Virus record (IMG/VR): IMGVR_UViG_3300008267_006518
Location: 1-32,370 of that record
Reading direction: 5' to 3' (one strand)
Length of the DNA stretch: 32,370 nucleotides
From: a virus
In this document: positions 620-19,890 of the stretch, one piece after another
Position numbering within the stretch: the stretch's first letter is position 1
How the letters are laid out: every line of letters starts with the position of its first letter
Notes under the pieces: model-generated
What the model was told of the DNA's origin: nothing
The model's database searches: none
Seen by the model: the letters and a program-made list of their open reading frames with translations, nothing else
Position numbers and translations under genes: made by a program

Positions 620-1023
620 TTCTCTATTGTAAGTTCAGCAAAACTCAAATTATGTGGGATAGGTTTTCCCTCCTTAACCGCAACAAATGTAAACATAGCG
701 GTGCACATTTTTTGTGTAAATCCTTTTCTATCTTCTCTGTAAACTTTACACTGAATCAACATAGAAGATCTACCTAAAGATTTAAGCGCGGATTTGATTG
801 TTATTAGATCCCCCAAATGACCTGGAACTAAAAAATCTACCTTATCCATTGATGCTGTAACCGCACCATCAGCTTCTGTATTATAAAGAAGTTTTCTTGC
901 CAATGTTGCCGCGGCAATATCCATCTTACCAAGAAGTGTTCCACCAAATAAAGTCCCTGTAAAATTAATGTGATCAGGAAATACGGTAAAATCTGTTATA
1001 TATTCTAAATTATTCTCCATCAT
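616..1023 (-). CDS. Acyl-CoA thioesterase, hot-dog fold (YciA/ACOT-like)
   Basis: 135 residues, the usual length of a single hot-dog domain. The pattern GTLFGGTLLGKMDIAAATLA matches the GxxFGGxxMxxMDxxA core of YciA-type acyl-CoA hydrolases, where the Asp is catalytic, and ASMDKVDFLVPGHLGD matches the conserved VxFxxPxxxGD strand. The family hydrolyses acyl-CoA to free acid and CoA and acts as a cytosolic oligomer. Its start forms an ATGA overlap with the stop of the upstream surface-protein gene, so the two are probably co-transcribed. A lipid-metabolism enzyme is unusual cargo for a phage; it may alter membrane lipid or CoA pools during infection (inference). ATG codons at 1023 and 1020 are both possible starts. 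Confidence 0.85.
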   Translation of the reverse strand: MMENNLEYITDFTVFPDHINFTGTLFGGTLLGKMDIAAATLARKLLYNTEADGAVTASMDKVDFLVPGHLGDLITIKSALKSLGRSSMLIQCKVYREDRKGFTQKMCTAMFTFVAVKEGKPIPHNLSFAELTIEN

Positions 1024-4000
1024 CTAACTAAACTGAATTGTCCTTTCAGAACAATCTCTTTATCCATTCTTGTAACATACTTAATTTCATACACATAGAT
1101 ATCCTCAGGTGCTGGTCTACCATTCAAATCATATCCATCCCATACTTTGGACATAGCGTTTGATTCAAATACCAAATTACCCCATTTGTTCCAAACTCTC
1201 AAAAATTGGAAATTAGGAATACCTTCTGAATGTGTGTAGAAATAATCATTAATACCATCGTTGTTTGGTGTAAATGAATTAGGTGTAAAGATTTGAACAA
1301 TCATTACTTTTTTAGTTGTTGAATCCTTACATCCTGAAATGTTTTCGATTACAAGTTTGACTGAATATTCACCTTCGTTTTCATAATCGTGATAAGGATT
1401 CTGTATATTTGAAAAATTATCATCCCCAAAAGACCAGTACCATTTGGTTGCGTTTTGTGAAAGATCTGTAAAATAAATTCTTTGATCCACAATATTGGTT
1501 ATAAAGTCATCAGTTGTGAAGTCAGCGATTGGTAGTGGATAAAATATGGCATAAACTTGATTAGAAGCACTATCTTTACAACCATAAGGTGATGTAACTA
1601 CCAATTGAACATTATAGTATCCTGTGTCAACATATTGAACATTTGGATTTGGGAGTGTGGATGTTGTTCCATTTCCTAAAGTCCAAAAATAAGTTGAGTT
1701 TGGTTCACTAATAGAAGTGTTTGTGAATTGTATTGTAGTCTTGGAACAACTGATTGAGGTATCATTTGTAAATGAAACAATAGGTAGTGGTCTTGATGTG
1801 AAATTAAAATCAGATGTATCTGAACAACCATTATTGTCTGTTACTATGAGACTATAATTTCCTGTTGTTGATACATATATTGATTGTGTTGATTGACCAG
1901 TGTTCCAAACATATGTCGGGTAAATGTTGGTGCATCTAATAAGTGATGAGTCAGGAAAACAAAGTTCATTAATTCCTGTTATATTGAATATAGGTAATGG
2001 ATTAACAACACTAATTATGGAATCTGAAGATGAACAACCATTATTATCAGTTATTGTAAGTGTATATGTAGATTGATTGTTAACATTAATTGTCGGAGAT
2101 GTAGATCCATTACTCCACTGATAGTTAGGGTATACCAAAGAAGTTGATAATGTGGTAGAGTCACCAATACAAAATGGTTGATTACCCAATATTGTTGGTG
2201 GATTGGGTAGATCATTAACAACTATTGTAGAGTAAAGAGTGTCTTTACAATTATATGAGTTAGTTAAAATTACTGAATATACATCAGGATTATAAACAAC
2301 AATTGACTGACTTACTTGACCATCATTCCACAAATATGAATAACTTGGATCTGTTGATATTGTCACAGAATCTCCATCACAAATTATTGTGTCTGTTGGG
2401 TAAATGTCCGCTGTGAAGTTGTTATCCCAACTTATTGTATCTATTGATGAAATTAAACTACAACCTGATGAATCATACATAACAACCTTATAAGCCATTT
2501 CCGCCTCACATAGATTACCATTTGTTGTGTCAACCAAGTTAGTTACATTGGTTGAATCTAGTAGTATCCAACTCGATCCGATTGGGTATTGTTTGTAAAT
2601 GTAATACTTCTGAATGTGTGTTGAAAGTAATGGGGTAATTGGATTGTTCCAACTCAGAGTGTCATTGTTATTGACACCTAAACTACTATTGAGATATATG
2701 GTGCTAAGTGTGTCAGTTTCGGTTGATATTGAATCTCCATTACACCCTGATCTTGTCAACATATAATAATATAGTTGTTGTGATTGAGCATTAACACCAG
2801 TATGCGTGTAACTTAAAGTGTTGGGATTGAATATACTATCAACAATTGTGTATGGTCCATTTTGATTTGTCGAGTAATATATTTGATAGTTATAAAATGT
2901 ATTCTGAGTGTCCTTATCAAAAGGTTTGATCCAATTCAAATTAACACTACCATCTTCATTAACAGATAAACATCTCAGTTTTGGTGAATCAAGTTTTGGT
3001 GGGGGTAATACTACAATTGTGATGGTAGAGTATGAAGATGCATTTGCAGGACAATAGTTGTCTGAGGATTTGAATACAAAGTTATAACTATTTTTTTGTC
3101 TTGCGCACAAAGTATCATACCCTTCAACATGCCTACAATTTACTCTCCAATAAAAATTTAAATTACCCGCAACTGGAAATGTTTGAGGAACATTTGTGGT
3201 TAGTGTTGCGCAAGGGGTGATTGGACAACCACCATTTTGATTTGTGATGGGAACACCGAACTCATTTCCTGTTGCAGACATTGTAATGAGTTGTGATTGT
3301 CCACCAGTGAAAAAATTAAAGTCCGTAACTTCGAGTTGGAATCTAACGGTATCACCAGCATAAACGGTATCAATGAATGATGTCTGAAGTCCTGTTGCGG
3401 GATCTATGAATGGGGCATATACGGTTGGTGGTGTGTTTGATGTTCCCCAAGCTACAGCAGGACAATTATTGTTTAATACAACATTTATCTCACGAAATAT
3501 CTCAGCAACTTTTATACCACATTTATAAGCCGCCACTTTAACTACCGTTACAAAATAACCACCTGTAAATGATGTATAGTTTACCTCACCTGTATTTGGA
3601 TTAATCGTTGCCGCAACATTGTTTACATTTTGAGTAGGACTTGGTAATTGACTTGTAACACTATAACCTGGAGCAAAACCCAAATTGGTTAGATTGTCAT
3701 CGATAGGACTTGCCCAAGAATAAACAAGTGAGTCCAATTCCTTATCAACTGCGTTGTGATTATATTTGAAAGGATAACCAGTGCAAATAATTGTTGATGG
3801 TTTTTCGGCAAAATATGGTGAAGAATCAAAACAAGGATTTGCGTTTTGACCATTGTATGGATACATTATGGCTCTGTTGGCAAAACCTTTTGTGCCAGGA
3901 TTTGTGATATTGGTTAGAAAACTACTTCTACAACAAGTTCCCCAAGAGAATATCCATCCCGTTGGTGGTGGAACACCATTGAGTGTGGTCGGATTGGATT

Positions 4001-4349
4001 CATATATAAACTCCTCAACAAGTCCTTGTATAGGATTTTGTTGATTTCCGTTAATACAATCAGCACAAGGAGTTGTTCCATTAGAAAAGAATCCATTTGG
4101 ACTTATGTCCTGTTGTGATACCAAGAATAATGTTATAATTGGTCTACCAGGAACCGTAGTCTCCATATCAACCGATCCTGGCATACTAATACCATTACAA
4201 TCACGATAGAACTTCATTCTGAACTTGTATTGTCCGTTACCCAAACAATCCCAAGTTATTTCTCCACCCATTCCGTGTGTGGCAAATGAGACTTGTGGTA
4301 AAGAAACCAAAAATACCAAAGACAATAAAAATATCAGTTTCTTAACCAT
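1020..4349 (-). CDS. Large secreted surface protein with PKD repeats and gliding-motility-type C-terminal (CHU_C) domain
   Basis: 1109 residues. An N-terminal signal peptide (hydrophobic run ending SFATHG) is followed by a Bacteroidota surface-protein head (GGEITWDCLGNGQYKFRMKF), an FN3-like segment around residues 460-560, Ig-like/SprB-like repeats around 650-860 with recurrent Y.W..G...I motifs, two PKD-like domains (FWTLGNG and WYWSFGDD) around 860-1020, and a C-terminal block (FTPNSFTPNNDGINDYF, NKWGNLVFES, WDGYDLNG) that is the CHU_C / gliding-motility-associated domain. In Bacteroidota such C-termini are type B-like signals for type IX secretion. I infer export to the host surface, perhaps as adhesin, decoy or superinfection barrier. 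It looks host-derived and is odd cargo for a phage. It could alternatively be a virion adhesin, but the signal peptide argues against that. Confidence 0.9.
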   Translation of the reverse strand: MVKKLIFLLSLVFLVSLPQVSFATHGMGGEITWDCLGNGQYKFRMKFYRDCNGISMPGSVDMETTVPGRPIITLFLVSQQDISPNGFFSNGTTPCADCINGNQQNPIQGLVEEFIYESNPTTLNGVPPPTGWIFSWGTCCRSSFLTNITNPGTKGFANRAIMYPYNGQNANPCFDSSPYFAEKPSTIICTGYPFKYNHNAVDKELDSLVYSWASPIDDNLTNLGFAPGYSVTSQLPSPTQNVNNVAATINPNTGEVNYTSFTGGYFVTVVKVAAYKCGIKVAEIFREINVVLNNNCPAVAWGTSNTPPTVYAPFIDPATGLQTSFIDTVYAGDTVRFQLEVTDFNFFTGGQSQLITMSATGNEFGVPITNQNGGCPITPCATLTTNVPQTFPVAGNLNFYWRVNCRHVEGYDTLCARQKNSYNFVFKSSDNYCPANASSYSTITIVVLPPPKLDSPKLRCLSVNEDGSVNLNWIKPFDKDTQNTFYNYQIYYSTNQNGPYTIVDSIFNPNTLSYTHTGVNAQSQQLYYYMLTRSGCNGDSISTETDTLSTIYLNSSLGVNNNDTLSWNNPITPLLSTHIQKYYIYKQYPIGSSWILLDSTNVTNLVDTTNGNLCEAEMAYKVVMYDSSGCSLISSIDTISWDNNFTADIYPTDTIICDGDSVTISTDPSYSYLWNDGQVSQSIVVYNPDVYSVILTNSYNCKDTLYSTIVVNDLPNPPTILGNQPFCIGDSTTLSTSLVYPNYQWSNGSTSPTINVNNQSTYTLTITDNNGCSSSDSIISVVNPLPIFNITGINELCFPDSSLIRCTNIYPTYVWNTGQSTQSIYVSTTGNYSLIVTDNNGCSDTSDFNFTSRPLPIVSFTNDTSISCSKTTIQFTNTSISEPNSTYFWTLGNGTTSTLPNPNVQYVDTGYYNVQLVVTSPYGCKDSASNQVYAIFYPLPIADFTTDDFITNIVDQRIYFTDLSQNATKWYWSFGDDNFSNIQNPYHDYENEGEYSVKLVIENISGCKDSTTKKVMIVQIFTPNSFTPNNDGINDYFYTHSEGIPNFQFLRVWNKWGNLVFESNAMSKVWDGYDLNGRPAPEDIYVYEIKYVTRMDKEIVLKGQFSLVR

Positions 4350-6046: not shown

Positions 6047-6592
6047 TTAATTTGATAATGGCATTTTTATTGTTGGGTGATACTGATAATTTTCAAGTGT
6101 TATATCTTCTAAAGTATATTCTGATATATCATTAACTTTTCTGTCAGATAGTTTCAATCTTGGTAGATCATAAGGTTTCCTATCAATTTGTTCTTTAACA
6201 CCTTCTATCTGATTCAAATATATGTGACAATCACCTAAATTACATATAAGTTCATCAGGAACCATATCAACTTGTTTTGCAATCATCATTAGAAGTAAGG
6301 CGTATGATGAAATATTGAATGGTAACCCTAATGCGGTATCTACTGAACGTTGATTCCACATTAGAGAGATTGATCTGGTTGGAATTAAATCTAATGGATC
6401 TATATTTGGAGTTAAGTTCCTTCTTTTATATTCATCCATCCTTTCTTGAAGGGTTAACTCTCTTGTATAAACTTGAAATCCATAATGACAAGGTGGAAGA
6501 ACCATTTGGTCTAATTCACCTACATTCCAAGCTGAAACCATTAGTCGTCTTGAGTCTGGGTTTGTTTTAAGATCTACGCCACTGAGCTCCAT
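6047..6592 (-). CDS. thyA: Thymidylate synthase, C-terminal part of a broken gene
   Basis: 181 residues covering the second half of thymidylate synthase, which methylates dUMP to dTMP with methylene-tetrahydrofolate. NPDSRRLMVSAWNVGELDQM carries the two phosphate-binding arginines; VLPPCHYGFQVY has the catalytic Cys; LPFNISSYALLL and GDCHIYLNQ carry the substrate Asn and His. The frame begins at an ATG that lies out of frame inside the N-terminal half. Relative to intact enzymes about 20 residues between the QWR motif and the NPDSRR motif are missing, and the frame is shifted by one base at the same point. This looks like an internal deletion with frameshift, so activity is doubtful unless the halves reassemble. 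Confidence 0.85.
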   Translation of the reverse strand: MELSGVDLKTNPDSRRLMVSAWNVGELDQMVLPPCHYGFQVYTRELTLQERMDEYKRRNLTPNIDPLDLIPTRSISLMWNQRSVDTALGLPFNISSYALLLMMIAKQVDMVPDELICNLGDCHIYLNQIEGVKEQIDRKPYDLPRLKLSDRKVNDISEYTLEDITLENYQYHPTIKMPLSN

Positions 6593-7034
6593 AAATTGGG
6601 CCTAATTCACCCCATCTAAAAGCAAACATTTTATCTGTTTTGATTCGCTCAATAAACTCATCTTTAGAGTAAGGTTCAATAGTTGGAACACCTTTTGTAT
6701 CAATTGAATATGATTTCAAATATCTTACAATATCCTTATCACTAATTACTTTATGTAGATAATTTTTATAAGCATCACCATCCCAAATGTGACAATTATT
6801 ATCTACAAGGTATTTGATGTTGGTGTCACCTCTTAAAAACCACAAAAGTTCAGTTACCATTGTTTTAAATGCCATCTTCTTTGTTGTAAGAAGAGGGAAT
6901 CCTGTTTTCATTTTGTGACGAAGTTGTCTACCAAATACTGATATGGTTCCTCCGTTTCTATTTTCTTTTTTCTCGATACCAAAACGAAGGATGTCTTCCA
7001 AGAGTTCCAAATAATCTTCTTCAATTCTGTTCAT
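6567..7034 (-). CDS. thyA: Thymidylate synthase, N-terminal part of a broken gene
   Basis: 155 residues with the first half of thymidylate synthase: SVFGRQLRHKMKTGFPLLTT holds the phosphate-binding Arg and the folate-side loop, ELLWFLRGDTN holds the conserved Glu, HIWDGDA the Trp-Asp pair, and FRWGELGPIYGAQWR the segment before the active-site loop. It then stops (TAA) two codons after QWR, overlapping the C-terminal part by 26 bases in a different frame. All residues before the break match the family well, so the break looks recent. The start overlaps the stop of the upstream membrane-protein gene by 14 bases. Confidence 0.85.
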   Translation of the reverse strand: MNRIEEDYLELLEDILRFGIEKKENRNGGTISVFGRQLRHKMKTGFPLLTTKKMAFKTMVTELLWFLRGDTNIKYLVDNNCHIWDGDAYKNYLHKVISDKDIVRYLKSYSIDTKGVPTIEPYSKDEFIERIKTDKMFAFRWGELGPIYGAQWRRS

Positions 7035-13571: not shown

Positions 13572-13588
13572 TTATTTGATTTTGTTTG

Positions 13589-13672
13589 TAGACAAGGGAG
13601 GACTCGAACCTCCACGATTATGTATCTCACAGGTTAAACCTGATTAGCGTCTGCCAATTCCGCCACTCATCT
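13589..13672 (-). tRNA. tRNA-Leu-like (class II), anticodon probably TAA
   Basis: 84 bases. Acceptor AGATGAG pairs with CTTGTCT (two G-T pairs), D-arm GCGGAATTGGCAGACGC is of leucine type, a short variable arm (GAT-loop-ATC) follows, and the T-arm GGAGG-TTCGAGT-CCTCC is perfect. No CCA is encoded. The anticodon region CAGGTTTAACCTG is self-complementary: one register gives loop TTTAACC with anticodon TAA (Leu, codon UUA), another gives GTTTAAC with TTA, which would read the UAA stop. Neither stem is fully paired, so the anticodon is uncertain and the RNA may be altered or degenerate. Confidence 0.7.
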
Positions 13673-14163: not shown

Positions 14164-14240
14164 TGGTGGGCCTGGTTGGGTTCGAACCAACGGCTTCAAA
14201 ATTATGAGTTTTGCACTCTCACCAACTGAGTTACAAGCCC
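14164..14240 (-). tRNA. tRNA-Met (CAT)
   Basis: 77 bases including an encoded CCA. Acceptor GGGCTTG pairs with CAGGCCC (one G-T pair), D-arm ACTC/GAGT, anticodon arm CAAAA-CTCATAA-TTTTG with anticodon CAT, T-arm GTTGG-TTCGAAC-CCAAC. A CAT anticodon can be elongator Met or, when lysidinylated, Ile2; the sequence alone does not decide. Confidence 0.9.
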
Positions 14241-16205: not shown

Positions 16206-16241
16206 TCTTTCTTAAAAAATGTTGAGTTCTAGTATCAACCC

Positions 16242-16361
16242 TTATACTTTCAAATCTCTGACGCGGATGATTCGCCGATTGCCAGTAATTGTATAAGACT
16301 GAATGGCTTCACCAACCCTCGATAACCAAATCATCCGTCTAACCAATTCCGCCACCTGACT
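16242..16361 (-). ncRNA. tRNA-like sequence lacking a recognisable 3' half
   Basis: Begins (16361 downward) AGTCAGGTGGCGGAATTGG, identical over this run to the 5' acceptor and D-arm of the tRNA-like RNA at 17014-17126, then diverges. A stem GGATGATT / AATCATCC (16328-16335 with 16266-16273) encloses about 55 bases. No T-arm and no CCTGACT acceptor partner is found, so this is either a truncated relic or another kind of RNA. The interior also reads as a 30-codon frame (16242-16334, beginning MIWLSRVGEAIQSYTITGN) that looks protein-like but unproven. The 3' limit is arbitrary. Confidence 0.4.
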
Positions 16362-17013: not shown

Positions 17014-17126
17014 TAGTCAGGACAGGATTCGAACCTGTAATTGTAGTAACGAACTGAGAACATCGCTTCCGGCTGCGAGTTACTACCCTTGTTCATTGGT
17101 GCGTCTACCAATTCCGCCACCTGACT
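17014..17126 (-). tRNA. tRNA-Leu-like RNA with oversized middle (113 bases)
   Basis: Acceptor AGTCAGG pairs perfectly with CCTGACT, the D-arm GCGGAATTGGTAGACGC is of leucine type, and the T-arm ACAGG-TTCGAAT-CCTGT is perfect. Between D- and T-arm there are about 61 bases where a class II tRNA has about 31. They include an 8-bp stem GTAGTAAC / GTTACTAC with an inner hairpin, and no normal anticodon arm can be placed with confidence. No CCA encoded. It may carry a short insertion or intron, or be a tRNA-derived RNA with another task. Confidence 0.6.
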
Positions 17127-17131
17127 AGTTG

Positions 17132-17287
17132 CTATTTATTTTTCCATCTTATATAAATGCTGAAGAATGCTACGGCTATAGTAACTACACGCCTGTATGT
17201 GTGATGGTAATAAGTTTTATTGTAGCTTATGCCAAGATCAAACCACCAATCAGCAACGCACAACCATTCTTCAGGATAAGAAGCCAT
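17132..17287 (-). CDS. Small protein, 51 aa, in the tRNA-like cluster
   Basis: 51 residues starting MASYPEEWLCVADWWFDLGI, then YNKTYYHHTYRRVVTIAVAF and a basic end. Its last third is hydrophobic enough for a membrane span. It lies between two tRNA-like RNAs, with stop 6 bases before the next tRNA-like 5' end. Upstream, at about 17302-17309, the acceptor-like sequence AGTCAGGT occurs again. Real gene likely but not certain; a 22-codon alternative in another frame was judged weaker. Confidence 0.45.
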   Translation of the reverse strand: MASYPEEWLCVADWWFDLGISYNKTYYHHTYRRVVTIAVAFFSIYIRWKNK

Positions 17288-17318
17288 CTTCTCATTATGT
17301 GCTACCTGACTATATAAT

Positions 17319-17435
17319 AACCAAAGAGGTCTTCGTCTCTCCTAGCTGGCCCACTTGAAGTTTTTCACTTCGTGCCCGACTCGAACGGGAATGCTAGCAA
17401 CCCAATCCAGCTTGCTCTTTTCAGAGTCTTTGGCT
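17319..17435 (-). ncRNA. Compact folded RNA with GAAA tetraloop and T-arm-like hairpin
   Basis: On the minus strand a 9-bp closing stem AGCCAAAGA / TCTTTGGTT (17427-17435 with 17319-17327, one G-T) encloses: hairpin CTCT-GAAA-AGAG, a 6-bp stem AGCTGG / CCAGCT, and inside that CCCG-TTCGAGT-CGGG, which mimics a tRNA T-arm, plus a hairpin closed by GAAGT / ACTTC. There is no acceptor or D-arm of a normal tRNA. The nested pairing in a gene-free gap between tRNA-like RNAs suggests a functional RNA; no known family is recognised. Confidence 0.5.
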
Positions 17436-17444
17436 ATTATTTTG

Positions 17445-17573
17445 TAGTCAAGACAGGAATCGAACCTGTACTGTCATAAAGGACATCAGCCTCGGGTTAC
17501 ATCACGCATAGTTATTTCTAACATCCCCGATACTATGCGACGGCTTTAGCGTCTTCCACTCCGCCACCTGACT
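17445..17573 (-). tRNA. tRNA-Leu-like RNA with oversized middle (129 bases)
   Basis: Acceptor AGTCAGG pairs with CTTGACT (one G-T), D-arm GCGGAGTGGAAGACGC is of leucine/serine type, T-arm ACAGG-TTCGATT-CCTGT is perfect. The middle is about 79 bases. It holds CGCATAGT / ACTATGCG (8 bp) and TCGGG / CCCGA in interleaved order, so a pseudoknot is possible, and an outer AGCC / GGCT. No anticodon arm can be assigned. The ends match the tRNA-like RNA at 17014-17126 almost exactly, so both descend from one tRNA. Confidence 0.6.
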
Positions 17574-18811: not shown

Positions 18812-19890
18812 TAAACCAAAGCTTCAGCACTTATCTTTGTGTTAAGAAGATCAATAAACTATTTCACAATCATAGTCTACAATTGGTAGTAATTTTACGA
18901 GAAGTTAGTATCGTGTTTTATGCTCGGACTTATACACGCTATCAACCATTAAAGAAGCAGGTCTATCGTAAACACTTATCCAAAGGGTGAACATCGTTAG
19001 AGTCTAATCCCCAGTGGGTTTAACCAAAGTTTGATTTTGTTTAATTTCTTTAAAAAACGATGAGATTACTCGTTTGGTTTGGAGACCTTTACATCGGATT
19101 ATTGTTTCCCGACTTATCCACAGAATTTTGTTCTGTATTCTCCAGTGTCGATGAGTTAGACCCATCACTCCTCAAGGTTTCATCTACTCTATCACTACTC
19201 CACTCTCTTCGAGGATGCCTCCCCAATTAGTCCTTGCGGGACTAGAGGTTTTTGGTGACAATATGATCAGACTTGGGATCTGAATCATCCTACCGACAGC
19301 CGGTAAGTAAGTGGACACCTTCCGATGAAACCTGCCGAACACTTTTCCTTAAGAACATTTAGTTTCTTTTAGATTGTGTCGTGGATTATCAAGGTAGTGG
19401 TTCGGCACCAGAGATATAAACTTTTGATCTATACCTATACTGAACTACCCTGTGAAACATCCCTGCTTCCTAACTTTTAGACAACTTCGAGATCCAACTC
19501 TTGGTAAAGTTTGATCAAGGAAAGTAACGGCACCACCCGTACACCTTCATACCTTTAGGTTTTAAGTCACCTATGATTATGGATACCGTAATGATATGGT
19601 TGGATAACCATACTTCTCACAAGAACCCTACGGGTTATTCTTATTGTCCTTCCGAACTCAACTGAACGACCCACATCGCTCAGTTACCTAACCATTTCTC
19701 CTACAGTGTCACCCTCGAATACTCAGGTTTGGTAATATCCCGCTTGCATACTCGAGCTCGGTTACCCAAGCCGCAGAGTCATTACACTTGTGACTCCACT
19801 TTATACCCCTTTCAGGGTTTATTTTAAAAGGACTATATGCCGCCCAAATACTATCTTTCAAAGAACGATGAGAAACGATTTTTCTCAAAC
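18772..19890 (-). ncRNA. Giant structured noncoding RNA, about 1.1 kb, GOLLD/ROOL-like
   Basis: No convincing gene exists in this stretch on either strand. A promoter (19897-19927) and a terminator (18772-18811) on the minus strand delimit one transcript of about 1.1 kb. Local stems are abundant: 19776-19796 (6 bp), 19660-19685 (6+3 bp), 19624-19636 (5 bp, triloop), 19595-19612 (7 bp, tetraloop), 19291-19305 (5 bp), 19263-19288 (9 bp with one bulge), 19228-19244 (6 bp plus outer 4), 19121-19135 (5 bp). GC content is clearly above the neighbouring gaps. Size, density of structure, phage setting and nearby tRNAs are those of GOLLD and ROOL RNAs, which are reported to assemble into RNA-only cages. 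Family assignment is not tested; it could be a new class. Confidence 0.85.

Follow-up and report, generated by a model that had tools for sequence, protein, structure and literature searches.

The window analysed here is the whole of one IMG/VR virus record of 32,370 bases. It contains phage-type genes (thymidylate synthase and DNA methyltransferase), which, together with a protein bearing a type IX secretion signal of the CHU_C kind, point to a Bacteroidota host. The protein in question has 1109 aa, also carries PKD domains and is encoded at 1020-4349 on the minus strand. The thymidylate synthase is split over two overlapping minus-strand frames (6047-6592 and 6567-7034, covering positions 29-142 and 161-307 of PHROG 160), which may reflect a frameshift, an assembly error or recoding. 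The RNA features of the window are as follows:

13588-13672, minus strand: ordinary class II tRNA of 85 nt, Leu UAA-like, used as length yardstick (Rfam tRNA model, ARAGORN)
14164-14240, minus strand: ordinary tRNA-Met (Rfam tRNA model, ARAGORN)
16236-16360, minus strand: partial third copy with the 5' half of the scaffold, AGUCAGGUGGCGGAAUUGGUUAGACG, at about 16360-16339 (exact GTCAGGTGGCGG match at 16349-16360, plus repeat D1)
17014-17126, minus strand: tRNA-like RNA X, 113 nt (Rfam tRNA model; its ends are those of at least 474 relatives)
17314-17440, minus strand: RNA module M, with a 14-bp closing stem of AUAAUAGCCAAAGA (17440-17427) and UCUUUGGUUAUUAU (17327-17314)
17445-17573, minus strand: tRNA-like RNA Y, 129 nt (Rfam tRNA model)
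19057-19452, minus strand: conserved 3' domain of a GOLLD RNA (Rfam, 276.5 bits, E 4e-78)

ARAGORN labels the tta anticodon of the tRNA at 13588-13672 'Stop'. The GOLLD RNA lies on the same strand as X and Y at a distance of 1.5 kb, and the GOLLD covariance model (RF02032) matched the window at 19057-19452 only, hitting neither X nor Y. GOLLD is also present in 7 of 36 related records, in several of them within about 15 kb of a tRNA-like array.

Anatomy of X, Y and module M

In X, the acceptor stem is formed by nucleotides 1-7 and 106-112, the D-stem by 10-12 and 24-26 and the T-arm by 89-105, with A113 as the equivalent of A73. In Y, the acceptor comprises 1-7 and 122-128 (with one G-U pair), the D-stem 10-12 and 23-25 and the T-arm 105-121, followed by A129. 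A preliminary description of this DNA had reported near-identical, paired ends around middles about 30 and 48 bases longer than in a class II tRNA, and our analysis bears this out. All seven acceptor pairs are formed in both RNAs, the D-stem GCG/CGC and the T-stem ACAGG/CCUGU are intact, and the 36-nt 3' ends are 92% identical; in length, X and Y exceed the 85-nt class II tRNA by 28 and 44 nt. The gathering score of the Rfam tRNA model is reached at exactly 17126-17014 for X (39.4 bits) and exactly 17573-17445 for Y (33.1 bits), both on the minus strand, and it is reached only because the anticodon arm of X and the anticodon loop of Y are passed over in the alignment as inserts of 56 and 62 nt, respectively. 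With acceptor, D- and T-arms intact, the anticodon arm is replaced by unrelated structured RNA of 62 nt (X) and 79 nt (Y). X and Y thereby combine the hallmarks of a natural tRNA scaffold, namely a paired acceptor of the AGTCAGG type, a D-arm, a T-arm and a structured middle other than an anticodon arm. The parts of the two middles are:

17039-17100, minus strand: X cassette of 62 nt, replacing the anticodon arm (relatives L284, L371)
17043-17086, minus strand: 8-bp stem of X, GUAGUAAC (17086-17079) with GUUACUAC (17050-17043) (double change in relatives)
17078-17063, minus strand: hairpin UCGC-AGCCGGAA-GCGA, enclosed by the 8-bp stem of X
17058-17094, minus strand: candidate pseudoknot of X, GAACA (17094-17090) with UGUUC (17062-17058), read from the sequence
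17470-17548, minus strand: Y cassette, 79 nt (relatives)
17490-17543, minus strand: conserved Y core CCGUCGCAYARUAUCGGGG-(variable hairpin)-UAURCGUGAUGUAACCCGAGG

Minimum free energy folding of the single X and Y RNAs was not unusual (z about -1.4) and thus uninformative, and the case for structure is built on comparison. The X cassette was found in locus L284 (95% identity over 60 nt) and twice in L371, each time on an AGTCAGG scaffold. Of the candidate stems of the middles, the 8-bp stem of X is supported by a double change, with one pair being A-U in the window and G-C in L284 and L371; the adjacent pair shows a G-C/G-U change in the same two loci. The 7-bp stem of Y (GCAUAGU/ACUAUGC) is absent from relatives and was dropped. 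GAACA and UGUUC of X are invariant across four copies and could pair.

The Y cassette is 93.5% identical in L327, where it sits on the same scaffold. Its conserved structure consists of a core around UCGGG/CCCGA and a covarying hairpin. Across eight sequences, 37 of the 66 core columns are invariant, and the hairpin differs fully in sequence between relatives with its pairing retained and its outer pair covarying between G-C and A-U. The core was also found in 11 other contigs on at least four different scaffolds, among them tRNA-likes of the GAGAGAG or GAAAGAG type and of the GAGGTGG type, and a plain long stem. According to this comparison, the Y core would be a stand-alone conserved RNA motif, and it has no match in Rfam. 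No host copy was found among 296 Bacteroidota genomes, a weak negative for which no positive control exists. Scaffolds other than AGTCAGG carry the core in L362, L363, L365, L366, L368, L369 and L370, one of them being the plain long stem located between two tRNAs, and these phages apparently have different hosts.

The closing stem of module M surrounds a core that resembles a pseudoknot and has a T-arm, UUCCCGUUCGAGUCGGG, nested within it. The same core forms the middle of AGTCAGG tRNA-likes in L096, L109 and L346 and is allele 2 (six contigs) of a hypervariable site described below; a double change (AGCUGG/CCAGCU versus AGUUGG/CCAACU) is seen between copies. Scaffold and payload are, on this comparative evidence, separate units, because Y-related cores sit on other scaffolds and the M core lies inside AGTCAGG tRNA-likes elsewhere. 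The partial copy at 16236-16360 is without a recognizable T-arm or 3' acceptor strand. A further fragment, ATAGTCAGGTAGC, at 17301-17316 (minus strand) resembles the 5' end of the scaffold, is located directly before the short open frame ATGAGAAGATGG and may be a relic.

Constant ends and structured middles in the family

In order to define the family, IMG/VR was scanned with a pattern in which 50-80 free bases separate a D-arm of the Leu type from a T-loop, with the first five acceptor bases left open, and two further scans covered shorter and longer middles. At least 474 distinct members were extracted from 356 loci. The scans are exact patterns that favor AGTCAGG ends, and with loci of at most 15 kb the array sizes are lower bounds. 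The members have the acceptor AGTCAGG/CCTGACT and one T-arm in common, and all seven acceptor pairs are kept in 442 of 474 members among the matches listed. In arrays that contain both, acceptor and T-arm identity amounts to 94% for tRNA-likes, a value that is partly due to ascertainment as the scans favor AGTCAGG, and to 51% for ordinary tRNAs; general homogenization of phage tRNAs as the cause of the identical ends was rejected on this comparison. Two checks are less prone to ascertainment, namely an anchor scan from upstream sequence, presented below, and the scan with the open acceptor bases, where AGTCAGG was found in 102 of the 126 matches listed. The features conserved in members are those of a tRNA (T-loop UUCGAAU, GG of the D-loop, D-stem and T-stem pairs, A73). 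The same middle also occurs on AACAGAG/CTCTGTT scaffolds, in which most acceptor pairs are changed and the pairing is kept.

The arrays run on one strand, with zero matches to the reversed pattern, and contain up to 26 ordinary tRNAs, including Leu. Among 257 Gb of bacterial genome contigs, the family ends were matched three times, in each case in a metagenome-assembled genome and on a single small contig, and none was found in 394 other Bacteroidota genomes. Named phages yielded matches to ordinary tRNAs only, plus one relative with a different acceptor (LR756501). No single gene family consistently adjoins the tRNA-like arrays and could serve as marker protein. No published description of such RNAs was found in a search that covered mainly open-access papers. 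Judged by their sequences, neither X nor Y is a solitary pseudogene, and both belong to a large, virus-specific family of noncoding RNAs on a tRNA scaffold, which is apparently undescribed.

The middles of the 465 members of up to 200 nt fall into at least 304 unrelated clusters among the matches listed. Because 211 of these clusters are singletons, the sampling of middles is far from complete. Apart from tRNA, no Rfam family matches them, and neither Rfam nor ARAGORN identified a tmRNA in X, Y or the family. Consensus folds of 54 clusters contain 92 covarying pairs, compared with 22 on average and at most 39 in column shuffles; in one cluster, a 9-bp stem shows changes on both sides in seven pairs among three sequences. 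Antisense matches of the middles to their own contigs (locus portions of up to 15 kb) were not in excess (10.0 versus 9.9 nt), and antisense control of the phage's own genes is not supported as a function.

It could be argued that these RNAs are true tRNAs that contain introns or have oversized variable arms and that are spliced or read through and decode codons; introns were also among the options of the preliminary description. The Leu-like D-arm and the good scores of the tRNA model fit such an explanation, and a few short members look genuine. Against it, an anticodon arm of 5 bp and 7 nt directly after the D-stem, its normal place, was found in 14 of 465 members compared with 10.3 in shuffled middles, and ARAGORN finds only 1 of the 283 members of at least 100 nt. 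Moreover, the arrays already have ordinary tRNA-Leu, the lengths are continuous from about 60 to 190 nt, and no intron family was matched in the Rfam scans. We thus consider decoding tRNAs very improbable. Members of at least 100 nt are, by these sequence features, without an anticodon arm and probably not used in translation. Some members of 60-95 nt on the same acceptor may be real tRNAs, and the border between the family and tRNA is not sharp.

Cassette exchange and transcription

Where both adjacent flanks are homologous, 36 of 146 pairs carry unrelated middles. Loci L004 and L015, for example, show 99.2% identity along 986 nt on the upstream side and 98.6% along 350 nt on the downstream side and have the acceptor-end oddity CCTGACGA in common, with middles that are unrelated and of different length. 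The anchor scan, which used 22 nt upstream of one site and is independent of RNA content, returned 59 contigs. Of these, 55 were readable through, and the scaffold was present in all 55, holding 16 unrelated alleles. Since the median upstream identity is similar for different (91.0%) and equal (91.7%) alleles, there is hardly any linkage between an allele and its surroundings; the nearest upstream neighbor has the same allele in 34 of the 55. Outside this site, 15 of the 16 alleles were encountered again, nearly always in phages without further matching DNA (longest alignment at most 121 nt), and the identity reaches 100% over 111 nt. No integrase was recognized among the few identifiable genes at the anchor site. 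While allelic exchange is seen directly at other loci, the evidence for the window is indirect and comes from the occurrence of the middles of X, Y and M elsewhere. Together, these alignments give good support to a swapping of scaffolded RNA cassettes between viruses.

Decaying tRNA genes or assembly chimeras might be suspected behind such sequences. The partial copies in the window (16349-16360 and 17301-17316) would agree with that, and assemblies can go astray at repeats of about 25 bp, but the repeats are shorter than the k-mers usually used in assembly. In addition, the acceptor pairs are as intact as described above, the middles covary, and alleles recur in many independent metagenomes, as illustrated by allele 0, whose 9 contigs come from 9 data sets. 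In related phages, the acceptor and T-arm pairs show the opposite of random decay, and we regard decay or chimerism as extremely improbable. The earlier suggestions of selection on the tRNA-like ends and of a tRNA scaffold serving as the base for new RNA devices are both supported by the constant paired ends and the middles of related phages, which differ fully even at one site.

TAnnTTTG, the promoter box of Bacteroidota, was found with its end 2-9 nt ahead of nucleotide 1 in 35 of 551 copies, compared with 0.5% of random positions, and the distances peak sharply at 4 nt. Every allele of the 16-allele site is preceded by the box TATATTTG as a consequence of the anchor design, and this box was already common to the first eight copies. 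Transcription from the box would start at or beside the mature 5' end. RNAs located elsewhere in the one-strand arrays must, in our reading of their arrangement, have their ends matured by tRNA enzymes. Only 16 of 465 members encode CCA at the 3' end, so that CCA addition would be needed.

The exchange could also mean that the cassettes are mobile DNA, with ends kept mainly as recombination sites (inverted 7-bp sequences, attC-like) and transcription being incidental. Inverted ends, middles that are replaced as a whole at one fixed position and cassettes common to unrelated phages are what such elements would produce, and the frame could be kept for recombination instead of RNA maturation. The retained features, however, are those of a tRNA as RNA, from the T-loop to A73; the middles covary as RNA; a subset has a promoter box whose end lies 4 nt ahead of nucleotide 1; and the AACAGAG/CTCTGTT ends still pair despite the change of most acceptor pairs. 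We therefore find purely mobile DNA rather unlikely. The near-identical ends may be selected for RNA maturation and as recombination tracts, with both pressures acting together.

Proposed maturation, possible roles and known systems

We consider it probable that the family represents a constant tRNA frame with an exchangeable structured cassette, which is matured and protected as a tRNA and presents the cassette as payload. The frame would consist of the acceptor AGUCAGG/CCUGACU with A73, a Leu-like D-arm and the T-arm ACAGG-UUCGAAU-CCUGU, and it would hold the cassette where a tRNA has its anticodon arm and in some members in the D-loop as well. Host RNase P, the tRNA 3'-end enzymes and CCA addition would mature the RNA, and the closed tRNA elbow would shield it from nucleases. 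The phage would gain a stable, accumulating RNA that presents the cassette, and the near-identical end segments of about 25 bp might double as recombination tracts for cassette exchange.

This scaffold-type maturation is proposed because the anatomy matches that of the engineered tRNA scaffold of Ponchon, Dardel and colleagues, by which stable recombinant RNA is obtained in Escherichia coli (PMC3753655). There too, acceptor, D-arm and T-arm are retained, an arbitrary structured RNA replaces the anticodon stem-loop, and the product is matured and protected as a tRNA (PMC3753655). The engineered scaffold is artificial, whereas the family described here is natural, viral, hypervariable and exchanged between genomes, and its maturation is deduced. 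To judge from sequence alone, the architecture of RNA engineers would already be used in nature on a large scale.

Other known systems are similar in part. Phage tRNA islands have the shared arrays, the strand and the tRNA ends in common with the family, but phage tRNAs have 20 identities, whereas the family has one shared acceptor and long members without an anticodon arm. In tmRNA, a tRNA-like end domain likewise carries a larger RNA with pseudoknots; the present family differs by its D-stem, the lack of a fixed middle and the lack of tmRNA matches noted above. YrlA (bacterial Y RNA-like) is a small structured RNA that mimics tRNA and is known also from phages, but its ends form a Ro-binding stem in contrast to the tRNA acceptor ends found here. 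Integron cassettes with their attC sites also have constant ends and exchangeable contents, those contents being genes, whereas here RNAs are held between tRNA arms. GOLLD and ROOL are structured phage RNAs near tRNA islands, and their function is unknown (PMC12286853); they are large, differ in fold and size and are without the cassette architecture of the family.

With respect to the role of the RNAs, decoys have to be considered. Decoys for tRNA-cleaving defences were one option of the preliminary description; decoys for anticodon nucleases are unlikely because the RNAs have no anticodon loop as cleavage target. Decoys of another kind, binding the elbow or the acceptor, are possible. The RNAs would then be decoys or sponges for tRNA-directed defences that read these parts, with the middle being filler or an anti-cleavage design. 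Elbow and acceptor are indeed the constant part, and the phages also carry large sets of ordinary tRNAs, as is typical of phages facing tRNA depletion. Filler, however, would not be expected to be structured, allelic and common to several phages, and we judge the decoy explanation of the scaffold as a whole to be quite improbable.

Returning to the payload-presenting frame, each cassette might bind, block or act as decoy for a specific host or rival-phage factor, and an arms race would keep the alleles circulating. Such a conflict role is favored because of the allelic diversity at one site, the sharing across unrelated phages and the absence from host chromosomes. We put this use of the cassettes forward tentatively, with somewhat less than even confidence. 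In its widest form, which we hold to be slightly more doubtful, the proposal is that uncultured Bacteroidota phages maintain a communal arsenal of hundreds of RNA payloads on one tRNA-derived chassis, and that individual sites change between many unrelated payloads because each of these neutralizes a particular host defence or excludes particular rivals.

The pattern of sixteen alleles at one site is what an arms race would leave, which makes the modules good candidates for counter-defence by RNA or for exclusion between phages, where few examples are known. If true, they would be an RNA counterpart of the anti-defence protein cassettes and an exchangeable RNA toolkit of viruses. The family also provides a catalogue of about 300 structured RNA modules without known Rfam relatives, many of them common to unrelated phages. 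For the tRNA annotation of uncultured phages, it would imply that a second class of genes is hidden under 'tRNA-???' or under spurious Leu and Ser tRNAs.

Several additional observations concern the arrays and their relatives. The D-loop appears to be a second cassette position, with inserts in several unrelated members; the D-loops of L095, L061, L215, L346 and L306 have either a hairpin of their own or a shared insert, GGTACAAAGAGTAATGGTATGTGCC being one example. The relative in LR756501, a deposited megaphage genome of 735 kb, is a tRNA-like of 111 nt (L357, 4918-5028) with the acceptor AGTTAAG/CTTAACT and an oversized middle, and the same phage contains a second tRNA-like of 118 nt at 1865-1982. 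A second conserved RNA is located between tRNA-likes in L001, L046, L092, L232, L235 and L284; it starts with CTGACACGCACGGCA and contains ACCTCACTGTGCGTAGGTAAG, and a hairpin built as stem-GGAAAGAC-stem comes next.
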